A DNA stretch of 50,452 nucleotides from Candidatus Bipolaricaulota bacterium (GTDB lineage Bacteria; Bipolaricaulota; Bipolaricaulia; UBA7950; UBA9294). Of this stretch, positions 35,893 to 46,192 are shown piece by piece. Numbering within the stretch: the first letter of the stretch is position 1; each line of letters starts with the position of its first letter. Below the pieces are notes generated by a model. That model saw nothing but the letters and a program-made list of their open reading frames with translations. It had not been told where the DNA came from and searched no databases. The position numbers were made by a program, and so were the translations under genes. Location: the NCBI GenBank assembly GCA_028278555.1, contig JANQEA010000059.1, positions 1 to 50,452 on the forward strand, given 5' to 3'.

Positions 35893-37326
35893 CTAGGGAA
35901 TCAACCCCCAGCCGGTCTGCACATCGTGCCCGGGCGCTCCGAGATCGATCGCTTCGGCTGTGAGTGTCGCGATCAGCGCGGCAACGCTTAGGCTCGGGTC
36001 GGAAGCGATGTGAAACGCCGCCACGCCGGCGACGTGGGGAGCGGCAAACGACGTCCCGGATCCGGTCCTCAGCGTCCCTCCGGGAATCAACGAGAGCACA
36101 TCGACGCCGCGGCTGACCAAGTCGAGCTCCTCCCCGACGTTCGAGAACCCCGCCGGGTTCCCTTCGCGATCGACCGCACCGACAGTCAGGACCTCACTCC
36201 AGCGGGCGATCGGACCGAGTTCCTCGGCGCCGTTCCCGGCAATCGCGACCACGAGGACGTCGCGCGCGACGGCGCGCCGGATCGCCTCCCGAACCTCGAT
36301 GGGCGGCACGCGCGTCGCGTAGAGCGACAGGTTGATGATCCGAGCTCCTTGATCGACCGCGTAGTCGATCGCCGCCGCGAGACGCGGCCAGTCGGAGGTG
36401 TAGAAGACGCCCTCTGCATCGAGGAGTCGGAGATCCATCACGCGGACGCTGCACGGTACACCGGTCGGCAGACGACTCTCCACCGCGTCGACGAGTACGC
36501 CGGCGACGAAGGTCCCGTGCCAGTGGATCGGCGACCCGGACAGGCTGTCCGGATCGTCGTCGCGAAAATCCCACCCGAAGACGTCATCGACGTAGCCGTT
36601 TCCGTCGTCGTCGATCCGGTTGTCCGGGATCTCCAGCGGATTTCGCCAGACGCGGCAAGCGATCGCCGGGATCGTCCGATCGATCCCCGAATCGATCACA
36701 GCCACAACGACGTCGACCGGTTGAGCAGCGAGCGGCTCGATCTCACGGGACACGTAGCTGCTCCGCGAACAGGTGAGGAAGACATCCTCCAGATGCGGCG
36801 CCCCGGCCGACTCGATGATCCGGGATTCTCCATCGAGGAGGTGCGCGTTCGTGCACGAGACCGACAGATGACGGTAGAACTCGCCGAGGGCGATCGCGCC
36901 GCCGTACCCGGCGACGAGGTTGCAGGCTCGAATCGCGATGTCCGAGGCAAAGCAGGCCTTGCTCCCGTCGATGTAGATCGCCGAACGCGGACTGATCACC
37001 GTCAATCCTTCGAGGGTGAGCCGGAAACAGGAGAGAATCTGGATCGATCCGAGGATGACGCACGCGTTCGAGTCGGCGACCGGGTCCCAGCACGGAATCT
37101 CGGGATCGAACGCCGGAGGGAGATCGCCGAGGATCGTCACCTCGGCCTTGTGGTCGATGACGAGATCCTCTCGATAGACGCCGTTGGCGATTCGGATGAC
37201 GTCTCCGGATCGCGCCGCATCGATCGCCGCTTGGATCGTCCGGTACTCGAGCGGCACGTGGCGCTCGACCGACAGCGCGACGAGCGACAGGCCGATGACG
37301 ATGCTCAGCGTGATCGACAGCCGCAT
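35893..37326 (-). CDS. Exported subtilisin-like (S8) serine protease with N-terminal beta-helix
   Basis: 477 residues from the ATG at 37326 (AGGAGG upstream; signal peptide MRLSITLSIVIGLSLVALS). The S8 catalytic triad is complete: D212 in VIDSGID, H270 in HWHGTFVAG and S426 in GTSFAAPHVAG, with the family loop DDDGNGYVDDVFGWDF. Instead of an I9-type propeptide, residues about 30-200 resemble a right-handed beta-helix (TIQAAIDAARSGDVIRIANGVY, then ILSCFRLTLEGLTVI), as in pectate-lyase-like domains. It probably works outside the cytoplasm, perhaps maturing neighbouring surface proteins. It lies 62 bp after the last ECF-operon gene on the same strand, and 14 bp from the convergent barrel gene. 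Confidence 0.9.
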   Translation of the reverse strand: MRLSITLSIVIGLSLVALSVERHVPLEYRTIQAAIDAARSGDVIRIANGVYREDLVIDHKAEVTILGDLPPAFDPEIPCWDPVADSNACVILGSIQILSCFRLTLEGLTVISPRSAIYIDGSKACFASDIAIRACNLVAGYGGAIALGEFYRHLSVSCTNAHLLDGESRIIESAGAPHLEDVFLTCSRSSYVSREIEPLAAQPVDVVVAVIDSGIDRTIPAIACRVWRNPLEIPDNRIDDDGNGYVDDVFGWDFRDDDPDSLSGSPIHWHGTFVAGVLVDAVESRLPTGVPCSVRVMDLRLLDAEGVFYTSDWPRLAAAIDYAVDQGARIINLSLYATRVPPIEVREAIRRAVARDVLVVAIAGNGAEELGPIARWSEVLTVGAVDREGNPAGFSNVGEELDLVSRGVDVLSLIPGGTLRTGSGTSFAAPHVAGVAAFHIASDPSLSVAALIATLTAEAIDLGAPGHDVQTGWGLIP

Positions 37327-37388: not shown

Positions 37389-37916
37389 TCAATCGAACCG
37401 CAAGACGATGCGTGCAACGTTCTTCACCCAATAGCTCCCGGCCGATTCGGCCCCGTAGTCGGCGTTGCTCACCCCGCCGTCGGCCGGGAGGACAGCAATC
37501 CGGTAGCCGTCCGGCCAATCGGGGACGGTCCGACCGTTGAAAGAGAACGCCAAGACGAGAGGCTGCTCCGAATCCTCGACCCGCCGTCGTTCGATTTCGA
37601 CACGGTAGCCGTCCTCCGCGATGACGACGACGGACGTGTAGTCGGCATCGACCCCGAGCAGGTCGATCAGACGAACCCCACAGTACTCGCCCTCATCGCG
37701 CCAATTGCCGAACTGATTCTCGTACGATCCGCGCCGACAGAACCGCGGAAGGCGCTCGATCGTTTTCAAGCCGATCGTCCGCTCCGTCCCGGCAAGATCG
37801 ATGATCGCAATCGTCGGTCCGGCCGGCGCGGACGTCCAACGAACGACAATCGGAGTGACGACTGCGACGATCAACGCGAGGAAGCCTAGGAGATAGGCCG
37901 GTCGAATCCCGCGCAT
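37389..37916 (-). CDS. Membrane-anchored sulfite-oxidase-fold (Oxidoreductase_molyb-like) binding protein of the ECF operon
   Basis: 175 residues from the ATG at 37916, which shares a base with the EcfT stop (TGATG). One N-terminal helix (YLLGFLALIVAVVTPIVV) serves as signal anchor, followed by a single domain with the PF00174-type pattern: IERLP, CGVRLIDLLG, VIAEDGYRVEI, LAFSFNG, GYRIAVLP and SYWVKNVARIVL. The canonical Mo-ligating Cys context is not evident, so ligand binding rather than catalysis is likely. The same domain occurs fused to the S-component and in three copies in the exported protein of this operon. Confidence 0.75.
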   Translation of the reverse strand: MRGIRPAYLLGFLALIVAVVTPIVVRWTSAPAGPTIAIIDLAGTERTIGLKTIERLPRFCRRGSYENQFGNWRDEGEYCGVRLIDLLGVDADYTSVVVIAEDGYRVEIERRRVEDSEQPLVLAFSFNGRTVPDWPDGYRIAVLPADGGVSNADYGAESAGSYWVKNVARIVLRFD

Positions 37917-38683
37917 CAGATCCACCCCCCACGCGTCGCCACGACCGTCAAGACGACCAGCAGGCCGGTAGCAGCGAGCGCGATCCCGTCGGCCGCCTCG
38001 AACCGTTCGGGGTTTGGATAGGTTCGGCGTGGATGAAGGCCGAAGCACCGTCCCTTCATCGAGAGGGCGATGCTGTCGACCCGCATCAGCCCGGAGACGA
38101 GGACCGGCACGAACGTATATCGGATGGCGCGACGGATCCCTGTGACGCTTCGGACCGATGCTTGCAGACCTCGGACCCGCTGCGCCTCACGGACGATCCT
38201 CAGCTCTCGCTGGAAGAACGGTACGAACCGCATCGCGAGGATCAGCAGATAGCCGTACCGATACGGGATGCCGAACCGGATCAGCATCCCCGCCAGACGG
38301 TCCGGATCGACGACGTGGACGAACAGGAGGCTTGAGGCGAGGACGACGAGGAATCTGAGGGCCATCCCGGCGCCGGCGAGGAGGCCGGCGTCGGTGATGC
38401 GGGAGAACCCCTCGATCACGGGCATCCCCTCCCGGACCGAAAGGACCTGAGCGATGAACAGTATCGCAGCGAAGACGAGCACGAATCGGAGACTCCGGAG
38501 GAACGCGCCGACCGAGAGCCCCGACCAACCGGCGAGGATCATAACGATCCCGAGCGTCCCGAGGCGGACAATGACGCTCGGCGAGGCGAGAACGACGCCG
38601 ACGAGCCCGATCAGCAACACGAGGTTCGCGATCGGAGTCGCTGTTCGGAGCCCTCGATCTCCCTGCATCGCCCGATCGCTCAA
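37916..38683 (-). CDS. ECF transporter transmembrane component EcfT (CbiQ family)
   Basis: 255 residues with about five to six membrane helices. The cytoplasmic coupling helices that bind the ATPases carry variants of the usual Ala-Arg-Gly motifs: REAQRVRG near the middle and SMKGRCFG near residue 215. EcfT links the S-component to the two ATPase domains and converts ATP hydrolysis into substrate release. The start overlaps the ATPase gene stop as ATGA, and the stop shares a base with the next start, so it is tightly coupled within the operon. Confidence 0.9.
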   Translation of the reverse strand: MSDRAMQGDRGLRTATPIANLVLLIGLVGVVLASPSVIVRLGTLGIVMILAGWSGLSVGAFLRSLRFVLVFAAILFIAQVLSVREGMPVIEGFSRITDAGLLAGAGMALRFLVVLASSLLFVHVVDPDRLAGMLIRFGIPYRYGYLLILAMRFVPFFQRELRIVREAQRVRGLQASVRSVTGIRRAIRYTFVPVLVSGLMRVDSIALSMKGRCFGLHPRRTYPNPERFEAADGIALAATGLLVVLTVVATRGGWI

Positions 38684-40122
38684 CCGTCCGCCTCCCAGAA
38701 GCCGGGGAGGAAAGCCGTTCGCCCCCTGGAACGAAGCTGCACGAAGACCTCCGATGGCGCACCGAGGATCGGCTCCTCGTCGAGGTAGAGGATCCGATCG
38801 GCAAGCGCCTCGATCAGGGGCACGTCATGGGACACGAGGACGGCTGCGCCGCCACGTCCGCAGTGGGATCGGATCTGCGCAACGATCCACGCGACGTTCC
38901 GGCGGTCTTGCCCGATGAACGGCTCGTCGAGGAGGAGAAGATCCGGCTCGCGTCGGAGCGCCGTCAGCAAGGTTAGCCGCCGTTGCTCGCCGAGGCTGAG
39001 CGAGAGGGGCGGGACGTCCGCGAGCCCGTCGAGCCGCCCTTCCGCGAGCCACTGCACGAGCTCGTCCGGGCGGCGGTCGGGGGCGTCGATCCGCAGCTCA
39101 CCGATGACCGTCCGCTCGAAGATCTGATGATGCGGATGCTGGAAGACGAACCCCACCGCGGTACCTGCGGATGTTTCGATTCGACCGGCGGTCGGCTCCG
39201 CGAGGCCGGCGACCAGCCGAAGGAGGCTCGTCTTCCCGCTTCCGTTCGGCCCTATGATGCCGAGGAGCTCGCCGCTGCGGACGTCGAGCGACAGCCTTTC
39301 GAAGAGCGGCTCGCCGTAGCCGAACGCAAGCCGGTCGATCGACAGGAGACGCTCCGCCGTCGGCGAGATCGCCGGCTTCCCCTCTCCGTTCTGAACACCG
39401 AGGCTCCGCGAGGGGATCCGCTCCCGCGGATGTCGAGAGACGAGGCGTCCGCGATCGAGCACCAGAACGCGAGGCTCCATGCTCATCAGAGGGCGAACGC
39501 GATGCTCGACGACGATCAGCCGCATTCCCCGTTCGTCTCGAAGCTTCGCGAGTAGGTCGAACAGCCGCTTCGCGCCGTCCGGGTCGAGATTGGCCGTCGG
39601 TTCGTCGAGGAGGAGGATCTCCGGGCGCATCGCGAGGATCGACGCGATCGCCAGCCGCTGCTTCTCGCCGCCGGAGAGGTCGGTCGTCTCCCGGTGCCGG
39701 AGATGCTCGATGCCGACCGCTGCCAGCGATTCATCGACCCGGGCGAGCACCTCTTCGCGCTCGAGACAGAGATTCTCCGGACCGAAGGCAATCTCACGCT
39801 CCACGCGGAGCGTGCAGATCTGTGCGTCCGGATCCTGCTGGATGTACCCGACACGCTGAGCGATCCGCGCCGAATCGGTCTCCCAGACCGGGATCCCGTC
39901 GATGCTGATCTCGCCGCCGACGGCCGCAGGGATGATCTCGGGGATGAATCCGCCGATCGCGCGGCAGAGGGTCGACTTGCCGCATCCGGACGGGCCGGTG
40001 ACGACGACCGTCTCGTTCGCAGCGATCGACTCGGTCAGTCCATCGATCGCTGGGTGATCCCGGTCCGGGTACGCAATCCGCAGATTCCGAATGTCGATTC
40101 CTCGAGACTCATTCAACGACAA
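38680..40122 (-). CDS. ECF transporter ATPase, two nucleotide-binding domains fused (EcfA-EcfA')
   Basis: 480 residues. Domain 1 (about 8-235): Walker A GPSGCGKS, signature LSGGEKQR, Walker B ILLLDEP, switch His in VVEHR. Domain 2 (about 265-470): Walker A GPNGSGKT, Q-loop in FVFQHPHHQIF, degenerate signature LSLGEQRR, Walker B LLLLDEP, switch His in VSHD. ECF ATPases are usually two subunits or homodimers; a fused pair is less common but known. No ATG is in frame near the start. TTG at 40122 is taken, with GGGTGA upstream and a 14-bp overlap with the S-component gene; TTG at 40116 is the alternative. Confidence 0.9.
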   Translation of the reverse strand: MSLNESRGIDIRNLRIAYPDRDHPAIDGLTESIAANETVVVTGPSGCGKSTLCRAIGGFIPEIIPAAVGGEISIDGIPVWETDSARIAQRVGYIQQDPDAQICTLRVEREIAFGPENLCLEREEVLARVDESLAAVGIEHLRHRETTDLSGGEKQRLAIASILAMRPEILLLDEPTANLDPDGAKRLFDLLAKLRDERGMRLIVVEHRVRPLMSMEPRVLVLDRGRLVSRHPRERIPSRSLGVQNGEGKPAISPTAERLLSIDRLAFGYGEPLFERLSLDVRSGELLGIIGPNGSGKTSLLRLVAGLAEPTAGRIETSAGTAVGFVFQHPHHQIFERTVIGELRIDAPDRRPDELVQWLAEGRLDGLADVPPLSLSLGEQRRLTLLTALRREPDLLLLDEPFIGQDRRNVAWIVAQIRSHCGRGGAAVLVSHDVPLIEALADRILYLDEEPILGAPSEVFVQLRSRGRTAFLPGFWEADG

Positions 40123-41146
40123 GACGCGTCACCCGCCGAACCCAGAACGCACCGTCGTAGCCCGCCGCCATCAACCTCAATCGACCCTCCTCGATCGTCA
40201 AGAGGACATCCGAGTCCGAATGGATCGCCTCCCACGCGAACGCGGCTTCGTACCCGTCCTCGGCGATCACACGGACCCTCGACGCCGTCTCCCGAGGACG
40301 AGCCCGTTCGAGGACGAGATGCACCGGTACGCCGACGTAGTCGCGGGGAGCCTCGGATGTAACGGCTCCGCGAAGCTCGGTTCGAACGCTCCGTTCGTCT
40401 CCCTCCCACTCTCCGTAGCGAAAGGTGAACGGCGCATCGACGGCCCCCTCGATCGACGCCTCGTCCGGCGCGGCGAACGGATCGTAGACGTTCAGGTAGT
40501 AGTGGATCCCCCCTCCGAGAAGGCCGAGGATCACGACAAGCGTCGCGACGTGGCGTGCCCACCGGCGCGGCTTTGCCGCTTCCGGATGCGGTGCACGGCG
40601 GACGATCCGAGAGGCGACCAGCAGCCTCTCCACGTCCCACGCGAGGTACCCGCCGAGGGCCGCCCCCGAGACGAACGACAGCCCGACCATGACGAGGATG
40701 AACTGCAACGAGACGCCGGAGAAGTAGATCGCTTGGAAGACGAAGACGTTCGACGCCGACGCGATGGCGCCGGTGATCAGCGTCAATACGAGCGAGCGCC
40801 GTGGAAGGATCCCCATTCCGACATCGATCAGCAGTCCCTCGACGAGCGAGACGAGGAGAACGATCACCCCGTGCGTCCCACCGGAGAGGAACTCGACCGC
40901 CCCCTTGAGGAGTCCGGTCAACGTTCCCGAACCGAACCGGCCGATCAAGAGCCGGGCGAGGAGTGACCAGACGACGTGCAGGCCGGCAATCAGCTGCCCG
41001 GCGCCGAACGGGACCCCGAACATCCGGTTGATCAGGTTGCCAAGGTAGCCGATGTAGGTCGACAGGACACCACCCGCCGCGGCGAGCAGAGCAACAAGGA
41101 CGAGATCGCGAACGCCGAATCGCTCCCTCGTTCTCTCATCGCCCAT
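40109..41146 (-). CDS. ECF substrate-specific (S) component fused to a sulfite-oxidase-fold domain
   Basis: 345 residues. Residues 1 to about 190 form six membrane helices typical of ECF S-components, with family-like stretches (GVPFGAGQLIAGLHVVWSLLARLLIG, LLKGAVEFLSGG, GLLIDVGMGI) that recall YkoE-type permeases. A further helix (ATLVVILGLLGGGIHYYLN) then presents an extracytoplasmic domain (about 230-345) with the same pattern as the neighbouring genes: YVGVPVHLVLERA, VIAEDGYEAAFAW and FWVRRVTRLVV. The ligand is not identified; operon context (TOBE regulator, Moco-fold domains) points to a Mo/W-related or pterin compound. The ATG at 41146 has no clear Shine-Dalgarno and lies 11 bp after the previous stop. 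Confidence 0.82.
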   Translation of the reverse strand: MGDERTRERFGVRDLVLVALLAAAGGVLSTYIGYLGNLINRMFGVPFGAGQLIAGLHVVWSLLARLLIGRFGSGTLTGLLKGAVEFLSGGTHGVIVLLVSLVEGLLIDVGMGILPRRSLVLTLITGAIASASNVFVFQAIYFSGVSLQFILVMVGLSFVSGAALGGYLAWDVERLLVASRIVRRAPHPEAAKPRRWARHVATLVVILGLLGGGIHYYLNVYDPFAAPDEASIEGAVDAPFTFRYGEWEGDERSVRTELRGAVTSEAPRDYVGVPVHLVLERARPRETASRVRVIAEDGYEAAFAWEAIHSDSDVLLTIEEGRLRLMAAGYDGAFWVRRVTRLVVE

Positions 41147-41157
41147 GATCGGTCGGT

Positions 41158-42654
41158 CTACAGGCTGAGCGTGATCTCCACGAGGAACTTCACCGGCTTG
41201 AGCCGCATCCCTTCAGGGAGTTCGACCGAATCGTCGTAGACAAACCGCATGTATCCGCTCGACGTCGGATCGAGGAAGACGCCATTCATCTTGAACGCGA
41301 CGATGAATCGATCGTCCCGCGCGATCAGATCCGATGTCACCGTCTGGGTGTACCCGTCGGACGCGACAAGCGTGATCGAGTACCCGGTGGCCGCTAGGGC
41401 GTCGTTGAAATCGCCGTCGTTGTAGAAGATCCCCTCCTCCGTCGCGGGGAAGAGTTCGTCGTCGACGTAGGCGATCAAGCGCCAGAGCGGAAGACCGGTG
41501 TACGTATGCGTCTCGCCTTTGCTCGTCGCGGTCACCGTCGCGGTGTGACACGGACATCCGATCCCCGCCTCGAGCTCGGCCCGTAAGAAGAAACGTTCGA
41601 CGGCTCCTGTCAACAGGAGGCTGTATTCCTCGTAGGTTCCGAGGACTTCGATCCCTGTCACCATCCTCGCGGAAAGCGAGCTGGTGAAGTGCGGGTCGTC
41701 CTCTCCGATCTGCACGATCCGCAGGGGACCGGGATCCTCGGGCATGTACGCGCCGTTCTCCTTGTACGCGAGGACCCAGACCCCTTCCGCCGTGTCGGAC
41801 AGTGTGCCGACCGCGTAGTTCATCGAGTAGCCGTCGGAGGCCGTCACACGGATCGTCGCGTCCGACGGGACGTTCCCGATAAGGGTCGTCAGCGGGACCC
41901 CGGTGTAGGTCGCGGTGTAATCGACGCCGGCCGAGTTGGTGAATGTCCCGGGCGCGGTGATCAGTTCCAGCGCTTCCAGTTCGGCGAGGGTGTACTCGAG
42001 CAGCGAACCACCCTTGGCGAGCGTGAGAACCACGCCCTCCGCGGCAGCGATCTCGGTCGGCGGCTCCTCCGTCGGGAGCGGCAGAGGCGATCCGTCGTAG
42101 TCGACGACGAGGTACGTGACCCCCTTGACCATCATCCCGGTCGTCGACGGCGCATCCCCGAAGTAGTGCGCCAGCTCGGTGCCGAATGCCCCGAGCATAT
42201 CGTCGTTCGAGAACCGCTCGTCCTCCGGGAGGAAGACAAGCATCGGCGCGTCCTCCCAGTCGGGCGTTCCGTCGATCGACGTCGCGAGGACCGCCGGTCC
42301 GGCGGCCGTCTCTCCGTAGACGACGGCACGCGGGAGGGTTTTGTACCAGCCATCAAGCGCGACGACGCTGAGCGTCTCCCCCTCGGCCAGACCGCCGAGT
42401 GCCTCGACGATGCTCAGGAGCGGGACGCCGGTGTAGGCATGAATCCCTTTCCAGTTCTCCGCGCCATCGGTCATCGCCGGCCCCTCGTAGGCGACGCGCC
42501 CCGAGATCTCGCCGACAACGGCAAGATCGACCGGGATCGTCTCGTCGCCTCGGACGAAGTAGACCGTCCATCCTGCCTGTTGCGACCACCCGGCGACTCC
42601 GGCCGCGCAGACCATCGCCGCCAGGACAACGAACACCCGTACGCTCCTTCGCAT
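41158..42654 (-). CDS. Secreted protein with three tandem sulfite-oxidase-fold (Oxidoreductase_molyb-like) units
   Basis: 498 residues, signal peptide RVFVVLAAMVCAAGVAGWSQ, strong AAAGGAG before the ATG. Three similar domains: unit 1 (about 25-200) with YTGVPLLSIVEAL and VVALDGWYKTL; unit 2 (about 205-345) with YTGVPLTTLI, VTASDGYSMNY, LAYKENG and GPLRIVQIG; unit 3 (about 350-498) with YTGLPLWRLI, LVASDGYTQTV, VAFKMNG and YMRFVY. The GV.L..L..DGY..MNG..RIV pattern is that of PF00174 domains. A CPCH motif occurs only before unit 3. Probably a periplasmic or surface binding protein delivering substrate to the ECF complex. Confidence 0.8.
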   Translation of the reverse strand: MRRSVRVFVVLAAMVCAAGVAGWSQQAGWTVYFVRGDETIPVDLAVVGEISGRVAYEGPAMTDGAENWKGIHAYTGVPLLSIVEALGGLAEGETLSVVALDGWYKTLPRAVVYGETAAGPAVLATSIDGTPDWEDAPMLVFLPEDERFSNDDMLGAFGTELAHYFGDAPSTTGMMVKGVTYLVVDYDGSPLPLPTEEPPTEIAAAEGVVLTLAKGGSLLEYTLAELEALELITAPGTFTNSAGVDYTATYTGVPLTTLIGNVPSDATIRVTASDGYSMNYAVGTLSDTAEGVWVLAYKENGAYMPEDPGPLRIVQIGEDDPHFTSSLSARMVTGIEVLGTYEEYSLLLTGAVERFFLRAELEAGIGCPCHTATVTATSKGETHTYTGLPLWRLIAYVDDELFPATEEGIFYNDGDFNDALAATGYSITLVASDGYTQTVTSDLIARDDRFIVAFKMNGVFLDPTSSGYMRFVYDDSVELPEGMRLKPVKFLVEITLSL

Positions 42655-42672
42655 TGTCTCTCCTTTGATCGA

Positions 42673-43350
42673 TCAGGTATGGATTGCGGTGATGGGGATC
42701 GCTATGTAGACCGGATCCCCCTCCGCCAGGCCGAGCCGTTCGACGCTCCGTTCCGCGTGAAGCGCATTCAGCTCGAACCCGGCGCCGACAAGGACGAGGT
42801 TGGTCACCCCACCGAGACGGCGGATCTTCTTGACGCGAACCGAGAGGATGTTCTCCGCGGTCGATGCTGCCGGATCCGGGCGATCTCGCGAAACGAGGAC
42901 GACCTCGGGTGGAATGGTGATTGTCAGCTCCCGCCCGCGACCGAAATGGAAGACGTCGATCGCTTCCTCTCCGAGCCGGATCGCGCAGAGAGCCCCCTCT
43001 CGCTGCATAACCCGCGCTCGGTAGGTGTTCTTCTCGAAGAGGAGAGACCATTCGGGGAGCCGCGTCTTCGGGCGATTCCGCCGGTCCTGGGCGGCGAGCC
43101 GCTCAGACCAAAGGAGCCGTTCCATCACCTCTCGCGGGGTTCCAGACGAGACGAGAAGCTCCGACATGTCGACATCGAGAGAATCGGCGAGCCGCCGGAT
43201 CTCAGGCAGACCGGGTGCCGGTCGCGTCCCATGCTCGATCCTCGACAGCCGGCTGTAGTTCATCCCTGTTCTCTCCGCCAGATCGCGTAGGCTGTATCCC
43301 TTCCTCTGACGCGCGGTGTGGAGCAGATCCCCGAATTGACGCTTTCGCAT
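42673..43350 (-). CDS. XRE-family regulator with C-terminal TOBE (molybdate/tungstate-type) domain
   Basis: 225 residues. Residues 5-65 are a helix-turn-helix of the XRE/Cro type (GYSLRDLAERTGMNYSRLSRIEHG). The middle part is unassigned. Residues about 160-222 match a TOBE/Mop-like ligand domain (SAENILSVRVKKI then LNALHAERSVERLGL.EGDPVYIAI), as in ModE and ModC, which bind molybdate or tungstate. It is the first gene of the ECF operon, 18 bp before the secreted protein, and likely controls it in response to an oxyanion. The promoter appears leaderless. The XRE head is unlike ModE, which has a winged-helix LysR-like head. Confidence 0.83.
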   Translation of the reverse strand: MRKRQFGDLLHTARQRKGYSLRDLAERTGMNYSRLSRIEHGTRPAPGLPEIRRLADSLDVDMSELLVSSGTPREVMERLLWSERLAAQDRRNRPKTRLPEWSLLFEKNTYRARVMQREGALCAIRLGEEAIDVFHFGRGRELTITIPPEVVLVSRDRPDPAASTAENILSVRVKKIRRLGGVTNLVLVGAGFELNALHAERSVERLGLAEGDPVYIAIPITAIHT

Positions 43351-43356
43351 GGGAGG

Positions 43357-43387
43357 AGTCTATCCCTGCTGTTGCCAACTGTCAACA
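43357..43387 (-). promoter_or_regulatory. Leaderless sigma70-type promoter and dyad of the XRE-TOBE/ECF operon
   Basis: On the minus strand TTGACA (43380-43385), a 17-bp spacer and TAGACT (43357-43362) lie six bases before the ATG at 43350, so transcription should begin at or next to the start codon. No Shine-Dalgarno is present, in agreement. A dyad TGTTG...CAACA (43370-43387) covers the -35 box and is a plausible autoregulatory operator. Confidence 0.62.
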
Positions 43388-43444: not shown

Positions 43445-44839
43445 ATGCTCCGAAGGCGTACCGAACCGAGATCCCTTCCCCTGACGGACGGCCCGATCGT
43501 CCAATCGCTCCTCCGTTTGGCGTGGCCGGTAATGCTCTCCAACCTGTTCCAGACGCTCTACAACTTCGTCGACCGATTCTGGGTCGCTCGCCTCGGGAGC
43601 GTCGAGATCGCAGCGCTCGCCCTCTCCTGGCCGCTCGTCTTCCTCGTCCTTTCGATCGGGGCTGGAATCACCGTCGCCGGGACCGCCCTCGTTGCGCAGT
43701 ACACCGGCGCGCGGCGCCCCGAGGAGGCGAACCTTGCCGCCGGCCAGGTCATCGCTTTTACCACCGTTTTGGCAGCGGTTCTCGCCGTGATCGGCCTCTT
43801 CGCTGCCCGGCCGATCCTGACGGTGATGGGCGCAGAGAGCGATCTGATTGCGGCCGCGATGAGCTACCTGCGGATCATCTATGCCGGTATTCCTCTCATG
43901 TTCGGGACCTTCGTCGTCACCGCGCTCCTCAACGGCGTCGGAGACACCGTCACCCCGATGATCCTGATGGCAATCTCCGTCGGTCTCAATCTTCTCCTCG
44001 ATCCGTTCTTCATCTTCGGGTGGGGGCCGTTCCCTGAATGGGGGATCGCTGGAGCCGCGGTGGCGACCGTTCTCTCCCGCGGACTCCTCGCCCTCGGCGG
44101 CATCCTCTGGCTCTTCTCCGGTCGCCTCGGGATCCATCTCCGCCCCCATCACCTCAAGCCCCGATGGGGACTGATCCGGCGAATCGTGTCGATTGGCGGA
44201 CTCGCCTCGATCGGTCAGACCGGCACCGCCCTCGGCTTCTCGATCATGAACGGGGCCCTCGCCCGGATCGGCACGGTCGTCCTCAGTGCCTTCGCGATCG
44301 GCAACGCGTTCATCTCGATCGTTCTGATGCCAGCCATGGGGATCGGTCAGGCAACGGCAACGATGGTCGGCCAGAATCTCGGCGCCGACCGCCCGGATCG
44401 CGCGACCCGTTCCGTCTGGGCCGGTATCGGGATCTCCAGCGCCATTCTCTTCACAGCGGCCGTCGTCGTCCTCTTCCTCCGTGAGCATCTAATCGGCTTC
44501 TTCCTCCCGGATCCGGAGGTGATCGCAGTCGGGAGCGAAATGTTCTTCTTCGTTTCGCTGGCGTTTCCGTTCATGGGTGTCATCCAAGTGGTGATGGGCG
44601 CGTACCAGGGGGCCGGACACACGTTCTATTCGATGTTCTTCGGTCTGTTCCGGCTCTGGGCGCTTCGCGTTCCGCTCGTCTACGTGCTCGGATTCGTCGT
44701 CGGGATGGGAGCGAGCGGCGTCTGGTGGGCGATGCTCGGATCGAACCTCGCAACCGCCGTCGTCTCGATCGGCGTGTTCCTGACCGGCAACTGGAAGCGT
44801 CGGGTGATCAAGGGGGCACCGGAAGCCGCCGACGCCTAG
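43445..44839 (+). CDS. MATE-family multidrug/metabolite exporter
   Basis: 464 residues, twelve predicted membrane helices in two similar halves. Family motifs: ..LAWPVMLSNLFQTLYNFVDRFWVARLG at the N-terminus, ALLNGVGDTVTPM in the first half, and GIGQATATMVGQNLGADRPDRA with GAYQGAGHTF in the second half. It would export cationic drugs or metabolites using a Na+ or H+ gradient. It is divergent from the XRE-TOBE operon and probably monocistronic. The substrate cannot be read from the sequence. Confidence 0.93.
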   Translation: MLRRRTEPRSLPLTDGPIVQSLLRLAWPVMLSNLFQTLYNFVDRFWVARLGSVEIAALALSWPLVFLVLSIGAGITVAGTALVAQYTGARRPEEANLAAGQVIAFTTVLAAVLAVIGLFAARPILTVMGAESDLIAAAMSYLRIIYAGIPLMFGTFVVTALLNGVGDTVTPMILMAISVGLNLLLDPFFIFGWGPFPEWGIAGAAVATVLSRGLLALGGILWLFSGRLGIHLRPHHLKPRWGLIRRIVSIGGLASIGQTGTALGFSIMNGALARIGTVVLSAFAIGNAFISIVLMPAMGIGQATATMVGQNLGADRPDRATRSVWAGIGISSAILFTAAVVVLFLREHLIGFFLPDPEVIAVGSEMFFFVSLAFPFMGVIQVVMGAYQGAGHTFYSMFFGLFRLWALRVPLVYVLGFVVGMGASGVWWAMLGSNLATAVVSIGVFLTGNWKRRVIKGAPEAADA

Positions 44840-44841
44840 CC

Positions 44842-44870
44842 TTGCGTGAGACTCCGACCGGCTCTACTCT
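44842..44870 (+). promoter_or_regulatory. Weak candidate promoter for asnS
   Basis: TTGCGT, a 17-bp spacer and TACTCT lie in the 57-bp gap after the MATE stop, roughly 25 bp before the asnS ATG. The match is weak, and cotranscription with the MATE gene is possible. Confidence 0.25.
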
Positions 44871-44896
44871 CTCTCCAATCTCTGGGGTGAGTGTGT

Positions 44897-46192
44897 ATGC
44901 CAGTAATCACCATCGCTGAAGCGAAGGCCCACGTAGGCGAAGACGTCACGTTCCAGGGCTGGCTCTACAACAAGCGTTCGAGCGGAAAGATCCTCTTCTT
45001 GCAGGTCCGTGACGGGACCGGTGTGATCCAGGCCGTCCTCTCCGAATCCGACTCCAGCGAATTGTTCGCCGTCGCCGATCGGCTCCCCCGCGAGGCATCG
45101 ATCGTCGTCACAGGCGCCCTGCGGGAGGATCGCCGCGCGCCAACGGGATGCGAGCTTCAGCTCTCCGACCTCCAGGTTGTTCACGAGCCGACGAAGCCGT
45201 TTCCGATCGAGCTGACCGAGCACACCCCGAGCTTCCTGATGGACCATCGACACCTCTGGATTCGCACCGGACGACAAGTCCCGCTTCTCCGGATCCGAGA
45301 CTCGGTCTTCCGCGCGTTTCGTGAGTTTTTTCACCAGCGTGGGTTCGTCTCCACCGAGGCCCCGGTCCTGACCGGCACGTCGGTCGAAGGGACCACAACG
45401 CTCTTCGAGCTTGACTACTTCGGCGACAAGGCCTACCTTGCTCAGAGCGGGCAGCTCTACCTCGAGGCAACGGCGATGGCCCTCGGGAAGGTCTACTGGA
45501 TCGGACCGGCGTTCCGAGCCGAGAAGTCGAAGACGCGAAAACACGTCACCGAGTTCTGGATCGCCGAGGCGGAGATGGCCTACGTCGATCACGAGGCGAA
45601 TCTCACACTACAAGAAGATCTGGTCCGGTTCATCGTCGAGGCGGTCGTTGAGGAGCGAAAGCCGGAGCTTGAACAGCTCGAGCGGGACACCGACCTGCTT
45701 CTCGGTGAGGTTCGCACGCCGTTTGCACGCGTCGACTACGGCGAAGTCGTGACGATCCTTCAGGAGAAGGGGCACGAGGTCTCGTTCGGAGATGATTTCG
45801 GGGCTCCGGAGGAGGCCACGCTCGGCGAGCACTTCGGCGGCCCTGTCTTCGTCGAACGGTTCCCGTTCCGAATGAAGCCGTTCTACATGAAGCGCGATCC
45901 TCTCGATCCGGAACGGGTCCTCGCCGCCGATCTGATCGCGCCGGAAGGCTACGGTGAGATCATCGGCGGAAGTCAGCGCGTCGACACCGAAGACGAGCTG
46001 ATCGCGCAGCTTGAGGAGTTCGGTCTCCCGAGTGATCCATACCAGTGGTACATCGACTTGCGAAGCTACGGCTCGGTCCCGCACTCCGGGTTCGGCATGG
46101 GACTGGCGCGGGTGATCGCCTGGATCTCCGGCGTTCCGCACATCCGCGAGGTCATCCCGTTCGCGCGGCAGATCAACCGACTCTACCCGTAA
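44897..46192 (+). CDS. asnS: Asparagine-tRNA ligase
   Basis: 431 residues from the ATG at 44897 (GGGGTGA upstream); the GTG at 44891 adds two residues and is less likely. N-terminal OB-fold anticodon-binding domain (VTFQGWLYNKRSSGKILFLQVRDGTG), then the class II core: motif 2 FRAEKSKTRKHVTEFW, acidic EAEMAY, YMKRDP, LIAPEGYGEIIGGSQR and motif 3 GFGMGLARVIAWISG. The YMKRDP and IREVIPFAR stretches separate it from aspartyl-tRNA synthetases. It charges tRNA-Asn directly. The compact length resembles archaeal-type enzymes. Confidence 0.9.
   Translation: MPVITIAEAKAHVGEDVTFQGWLYNKRSSGKILFLQVRDGTGVIQAVLSESDSSELFAVADRLPREASIVVTGALREDRRAPTGCELQLSDLQVVHEPTKPFPIELTEHTPSFLMDHRHLWIRTGRQVPLLRIRDSVFRAFREFFHQRGFVSTEAPVLTGTSVEGTTTLFELDYFGDKAYLAQSGQLYLEATAMALGKVYWIGPAFRAEKSKTRKHVTEFWIAEAEMAYVDHEANLTLQEDLVRFIVEAVVEERKPELEQLERDTDLLLGEVRTPFARVDYGEVVTILQEKGHEVSFGDDFGAPEEATLGEHFGGPVFVERFPFRMKPFYMKRDPLDPERVLAADLIAPEGYGEIIGGSQRVDTEDELIAQLEEFGLPSDPYQWYIDLRSYGSVPHSGFGMGLARVIAWISGVPHIREVIPFARQINRLYP

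Follow-up and report, generated by a model that had tools for sequence, protein, structure and literature searches.

A candidate ECF-type importer with SUOX-fold capture domains in Candidatus Bipolaricaulota, possibly for a molybdopterin-type cofactor

The window analysed here is the 50,452-nucleotide contig JANQEA010000059.1 of a Candidatus Bipolaricaulota bacterium (assembly GCA_028278555.1), and its subject is a six-gene operon encoding an energy-coupling factor (ECF) transporter together with several domains of the sulfite oxidase (SUOX) fold. We propose, with a probability of about 0.5, that the operon is an ECF-type importer of a molybdopterin-type cofactor, that is, either the pterin alone or its complex with tungsten or molybdenum. 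Genomes carrying its S component encode tungstopterin enzymes and, for the most part, none of the three steps of cofactor synthesis that we tested, and thus probably obtain the cofactor from outside; an ECF importer with pterin-fold capture domains is the best candidate found for that supply.

Aldehyde ferredoxin oxidoreductases (AORs) are tungstopterin enzymes. Among 79 genomes of the phylum that are at least 80% complete, the S component was found in 20, MoaA in 25, MoeA in 27, MoaE in 15, the AOR domain AFOR_C in 65 and ThiC in 2. All 20 S-bearing genomes have AFOR_C (2 to 11 matches each), while MoaA and MoeA were not found in 19 of them and MoaE was not found in any of the 20. S and MoaA exclude each other overall (p 0.002), among the AOR-bearing genomes (0.014), within family f1 (0.0016) and at the genus level (0.004), these values being uncorrected for the full tree. 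In the genome of the window, one AOR resembles 1aor over its full length, with both AFOR_N and AFOR_C, and the six AORs examined carry the CX2CX3C motif. Outside the phylum, AFOR_C is present in all 26 S-bearing genomes (19 archaea and 7 Bacillota); among the archaea, MoaA and MoeA were each found in 1 of 19, leaving 18 with AORs and neither protein. The absence of MoaE disfavors cyclic pyranopterin monophosphate as the ligand, and the absence of MoeA favors a metal-loaded form, so that the cargo is possibly metal-loaded.

All six genes lie on the minus strand, from 43350 to 37389, as originally placed; only the start of the anchored protein, first put at 38048, is most likely 37916. Pfam and NCBIfam profile searches gave the domain calls for the operon proteins:

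43371..43386, no strand assigned: predicted operator GTTGNCNNNTGNCAAC, overlapping a TTGACA −35-like box 5' of the regulator gene
42673..43350, minus strand: XRE-family regulator with a C-terminal TOBE domain, 225 aa (HTH_31 2.6e-13, TOBE 4.9e-6, Pfam)
41158..42654, minus strand: secreted protein, 498 aa, with one N-terminal hydrophobic segment and three SUOX/PruR-fold domains (PF00174 5.7e-10)
40109..41146, minus strand: S component, 345 aa, with a YkoE-like core and a C-terminal SUOX/PruR-fold domain (PF09819 3.3e-17)
38680..40122, minus strand: double ATPase with two ABC domains, 480 aa (two ABC_tran stretches, 8.4e-55)
37916..38683, minus strand: EcfT of the CbiQ family, 255 aa (EcfT/CbiQ 2e-20)
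37389..37916, minus strand: membrane-anchored protein with a single SUOX/PruR-like domain, 175 aa (family profile; invariant NW and DGY motifs)

From their close packing the six genes look like one transcription unit: in operon order, the first two junctions are spacers of 18 and 11 bp and the next two are overlaps of 14 and 4 bp, while the ATG of the anchored protein (37916) overlaps the EcfT stop by 1 bp. An S component, a T component and two ATPase domains within one operon make this a group I ECF transporter. Pfam and the spacing thus bear out the tight operon of EcfT, double ATPase and XRE-TOBE regulator that had been read from the DNA. The S gene is single-copy in the genome of the window (2.9 Mb, 88 contigs).

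Five copies of one domain in three proteins had been counted in the original prediction, and the count was confirmed: three in the secreted protein (residues ~28-190, 204-340 and 341-498), one fused to S (225-345) and one in the anchored protein. The Asp of their D-G-Y/W core is invariant (20/20 rows for each secreted domain, 25/25 for S, 12/12 for the anchored protein), as is the core Tyr in four domains; in domain 1 this position is Trp in 16 rows and Tyr in 4. The N-D-Y core of PruR, a periplasmic pterin-binding protein, aligns with D-G-Y, which matches the Asn/Asp102 and conserved Tyr of PruR (residue 102 and the named Tyr being assigned by our own count). A SUOX-like fold for the repeated domain, proposed earlier with structure prediction as its check, was borne out by models of the secreted protein and of S, both of which show the small, PruR-type SUOX fold. 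The S component also reaches PF00174, at a sub-threshold 0.054, in Pfam. No Pfam match was obtained for the anchored protein; a profile of its family hits PruR (7kom, E 0.0022), and its assignment to SUOX is by profile only. A Trp aligned to the PruR Trp that replaces the molybdenum-ligand Cys occurs in domain 1 (20/20) and the anchored protein (12/12); neither domains 2 and 3 nor the S domain showed one. Domain 3 has invariant Cys367, Cys369 and His370; Cys367 is conserved in 15/15 rows, and the PDB alignments stop short of it. By reading of the sequences, the six aligned SUOX proteins of methanogen-side archaea begin like lipoproteins. In genome G000, a 341-residue open frame contains a second SUOX-like domain (C30:19227-19595), with an AOR gene (C30:5002-6144) ~13 kb away; similar lone matches occur in other genomes.

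The closeness to PruR also feeds a competing explanation, namely that the cargo is a small pterin other than molybdopterin, either reduced or of the folate type. PruR binds reduced monapterin in a small site, and the top structural hits for the secreted protein are to PruR. Import of such a pterin would leave unexplained why MoaA, MoeA and MoaE are missing where AORs are retained, and we consider it rather unlikely, though the strongest of the competitors.

The S component consists of a YkoE-like membrane core (~9-187), a positive linker, an extra membrane helix (~200-218) and the SUOX/PruR-fold domain (226-345). Its core groups with the thiamine S component YkoE and belongs to PF09819 (3.3e-17), a family confined to the 20 S-bearing genomes among the 79. 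YkoE contacts thiamine through Tyr46, Trp49, Glu77, Gln95 and Asp131, and replacement of Trp49 by Ala abolished the thiamine response of YkoE fluorescence (PMC5037267). We mapped these contacts onto 22 rows of S through alignments. Trp49 is replaced by His, Asp131 by Gln and Tyr46 by Ala or Ser, each in 22/22; Glu77 is kept, and Gln95 appears as Gln (17) or Glu (5), so that S lacks the full contact set. Grouping with a known vitamin family with conserved ligand residues had been named beforehand as what would count against a new uptake system: the grouping, with YkoE, was found, and the conserved contacts were not, Trp49, Asp131 and Tyr46 being replaced.

These replacements argue against a YkoE-like import of thiamine or hydroxymethylpyrimidine. 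In its favor, the phosphatase and APH-like kinase genes of the archaeal loci described below could be read as thiamine-phosphate salvage. ThiC is strong in one phylum genome and gives a 34-position match in a second, so that de novo thiamine synthesis seems nearly absent across the phylum; its absence from 77 of the 79 genomes is regardless of S, ThiC not tracking S (0/20 S-bearing versus 2/59 others). At the Rfam threshold, neither the window nor any of the 39 loci scanned gave a thiamine pyrophosphate riboswitch match. We regard thiamine import as unlikely.

The cargo had originally been put forward as either a molybdenum or tungsten oxyanion or a pterin cofactor. The pterin half agrees with the presence of AORs and the absence of MoaA, MoeA and MoaE; the bare oxyanion did not hold up, because most hosts lack the tested enzymes that turn an oxyanion into cofactor. 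The case for molybdate or tungstate as the cargo, in which the TOBE regulator would sense the oxyanion, consists of the TOBE domain, the AORs in all S-bearing genomes and the lack of a PF13531 protein in the genome of the window. A PF13531 protein is encoded within ~8 kb of moaA in at least 13 of the 25 genomes with MoaA (by eye); besides the genome of the window, 4 further S-bearing genomes and 2 of the 59 without S have no match to this family. However, with MoaA and MoeA missing from 19/20 phylum and 18/19 archaeal S-bearing genomes the known path from oxyanion to cofactor is closed, and the S pocket retains a YkoE-type acid residue. No oxyanion-binding substrate-binding protein (SBP) or binding-protein-dependent (BPD) permease was found in the operon by Pfam, TupA-type proteins elsewhere in the genome not having been searched for. 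Oxyanion import thus appears very improbable.

The S component was found in 48 further loci. Of these, 22 are of Bipolaricaulota type, and the remaining 26 belong to Bacillota, Thermoplasmata, Methanofastidiosia, Theionarchaea and further archaea. Most of the close homologs that carry a name come from Candidatus Bipolaricaulota. Its tree resolves four phylum-level groups, grouping by phylum, with archaeal and bacterial sides separated (94/91). The whole order regulator, secreted protein, S, ATPase, EcfT, anchored protein is kept in 12 of the 22 Bipolaricaulota-type loci (by eye), most of the remainder being interrupted by contig ends; L014 has no visible secreted protein, and L016, a long stretch, has only S, ATPase and EcfT. 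The S-ATPase-EcfT order is maintained in the loci of sufficient length. The S-SUOX fusion operon, for which a neighborhood search had been suggested, therefore recurs, and its spread over four groups, together with the six-gene order kept in those 12 loci, indicates that the system is not a product of chance. An AOR gene lies ~4 kb past S-ATPase-EcfT in L016 (17171-18619, chromosome-level contig CP070725.1), the sole one found by two AOR queries across the 48 loci, many of which are short. The S family is large, with 1071 cluster representatives at E values up to 1e-20 among 7999 scored. Some listed members are named thiamin/HMP (hydroxymethylpyrimidine) permease or molybdopterin-dependent oxidoreductase, and one is named Thermovorax subterraneus, which we take to be a cultured bacterium and hence a possible test case.

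A metallophosphatase gene adjoins S in 19 of the 26 non-Bipolaricaulota loci, compared to none of the 22 Bipolaricaulota loci. An APH-like or THEP1-like gene lies 3' of EcfT in 14 of the 15 loci that reach that far (L030 is without one, and the APH match of L026 is under the Pfam cut-off). In the archaea, these genes would fit a phosphorylated ligand imported without its phosphate; thiamine phosphate would fit too.

The TOBE assignment of the regulator stood, through the Pfam match and a match of its C-terminal half to the ATPase subunit 3d31 (1.2e-7). In the window, the sequence GTTGNCNNNTGNCAAC covers the TTGACA box at 21-36 bases 5' of the regulator start, and it precedes the regulator gene in 15 of the 15 Bipolaricaulota loci whose DNA extends that far (in two more the region is truncated). 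Neither the window nor the 828,630 fetched bases (68 loci) contain another exact match on either strand. Since it sits upstream of the regulator only, the regulator likely controls its own operon, and we predict GTTGNCNNNTGNCAAC to be its conserved operator.

Under the proposed import of a molybdopterin-type cofactor, the five domains would lie outside the cell, as the hydrophobic segments and the positive linker before the extra S helix suggest, and there hold the pterin, which the secreted protein and the anchored domain would hand to the domain tethered on S; from that domain it would enter the S pocket (His57, Glu85, Glu/Gln103, Gln138), with the double ATPase and EcfT powering inward release. 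The imported cofactor would supply the tungstopterin enzymes of hosts without the tested synthesis genes. In the archaeal versions, the metallophosphatase may clip a phosphate outside and the kinase-like enzyme restore it inside, and the TOBE regulator may sense cofactor or metal and work through the operator that precedes its gene. A bolder extension, tentative and less likely than the import itself, is that this is the first transport system for the finished, metal-loaded tungsten cofactor, with bacterial and archaeal hosts that gave up the known synthesis steps, including metal insertion, and live on their neighbors' tungstopterin, gathered by SUOX-fold domains turned from enzyme to carrier.

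Several observations weigh against cofactor import. A review of PruR holds that its site likely cannot take the full molybdenum cofactor. Shuffling genera within families leaves the S-MoaA exclusion at only p 0.046, and family f3 has no exclusion (1 genome with both, 5 with S only, 7 with MoaA only, 23 with neither; p 1.0). The S-bearing Bacillota mostly have MoaA (5/7) and MoeA (6/7). Neither S nor MoaA was found in 30 of the 65 AOR-bearing phylum genomes, 19 of them from genera g14 and g17 and two of these on a single contig; either such hosts must have a different route, then, or the presence of AORs is a poor guide. The surveyed genomes are mostly in many contigs, from which clustered moa/moe genes can drop out together, the archaeal survey covers S-bearing genomes only, and the 26 genomes outside the phylum come without a completeness figure. 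Finally, none of the 22 Bipolaricaulota loci has the metallophosphatase or the kinase-like gene, and no exact GTTGNCNNNTGNCAAC match lies near the AOR genes looked at.

An uptake system for a molybdenum or tungsten cofactor was not found in the search listings of open-licence papers. If cofactor import is correct, many AOR-bearing anaerobes among the uncultured are cofactor auxotrophs, which could help to explain their resistance to cultivation; the cofactor is then a shared good, and the large S family, with its present permease and oxidoreductase names, would be re-labelled.

Beside the operon are genes for a transporter of the MatE family and a tRNA synthetase of Asp/Asn type (43445-46192), whose families recur in 7/49 and 10/49 loci, respectively; a subtilase-family protease lies downstream on the same strand (35893-37311).

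Among known systems, PruR (7kos, 7kom, 7kp2, 7rkb) shares the SUOX fold and the N/D-x-Y core, in its Asp form in all five domains here, and the Trp at the aligned place in domain 1 and the anchored protein. PruR goes with a c-di-GMP enzyme, whereas here five copies are tied to a transporter and domain 3 has an invariant Cys-x-Cys-His. The sulfite oxidase family enzymes (SUOX, YedY/MsrP) have the fold of the repeated domain; the domains described here are shorter and occur in tandem or as a fusion with a transporter part, their molybdenum-ligand Cys was not placed, and the second enzyme domain was not found by Pfam. The ModABC, WtpABC and TupABC importers have in common with the operon a TOBE domain and a link to molybdenum or tungsten enzymes; here TOBE is in a separate regulator, and the SBP and BPD permease of those systems are missing from the Pfam matches in the operon. 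The group I ECF thiamine transporter YkoEDC (YkoE 5edl) shares the S fold, PF09819 and its own S, T and ATPase genes, and differs from the system described here in retaining the thiamine contacts and in having no fused SUOX-fold domain, extra helix, secreted and anchored SUOX-fold partners or TOBE regulator.
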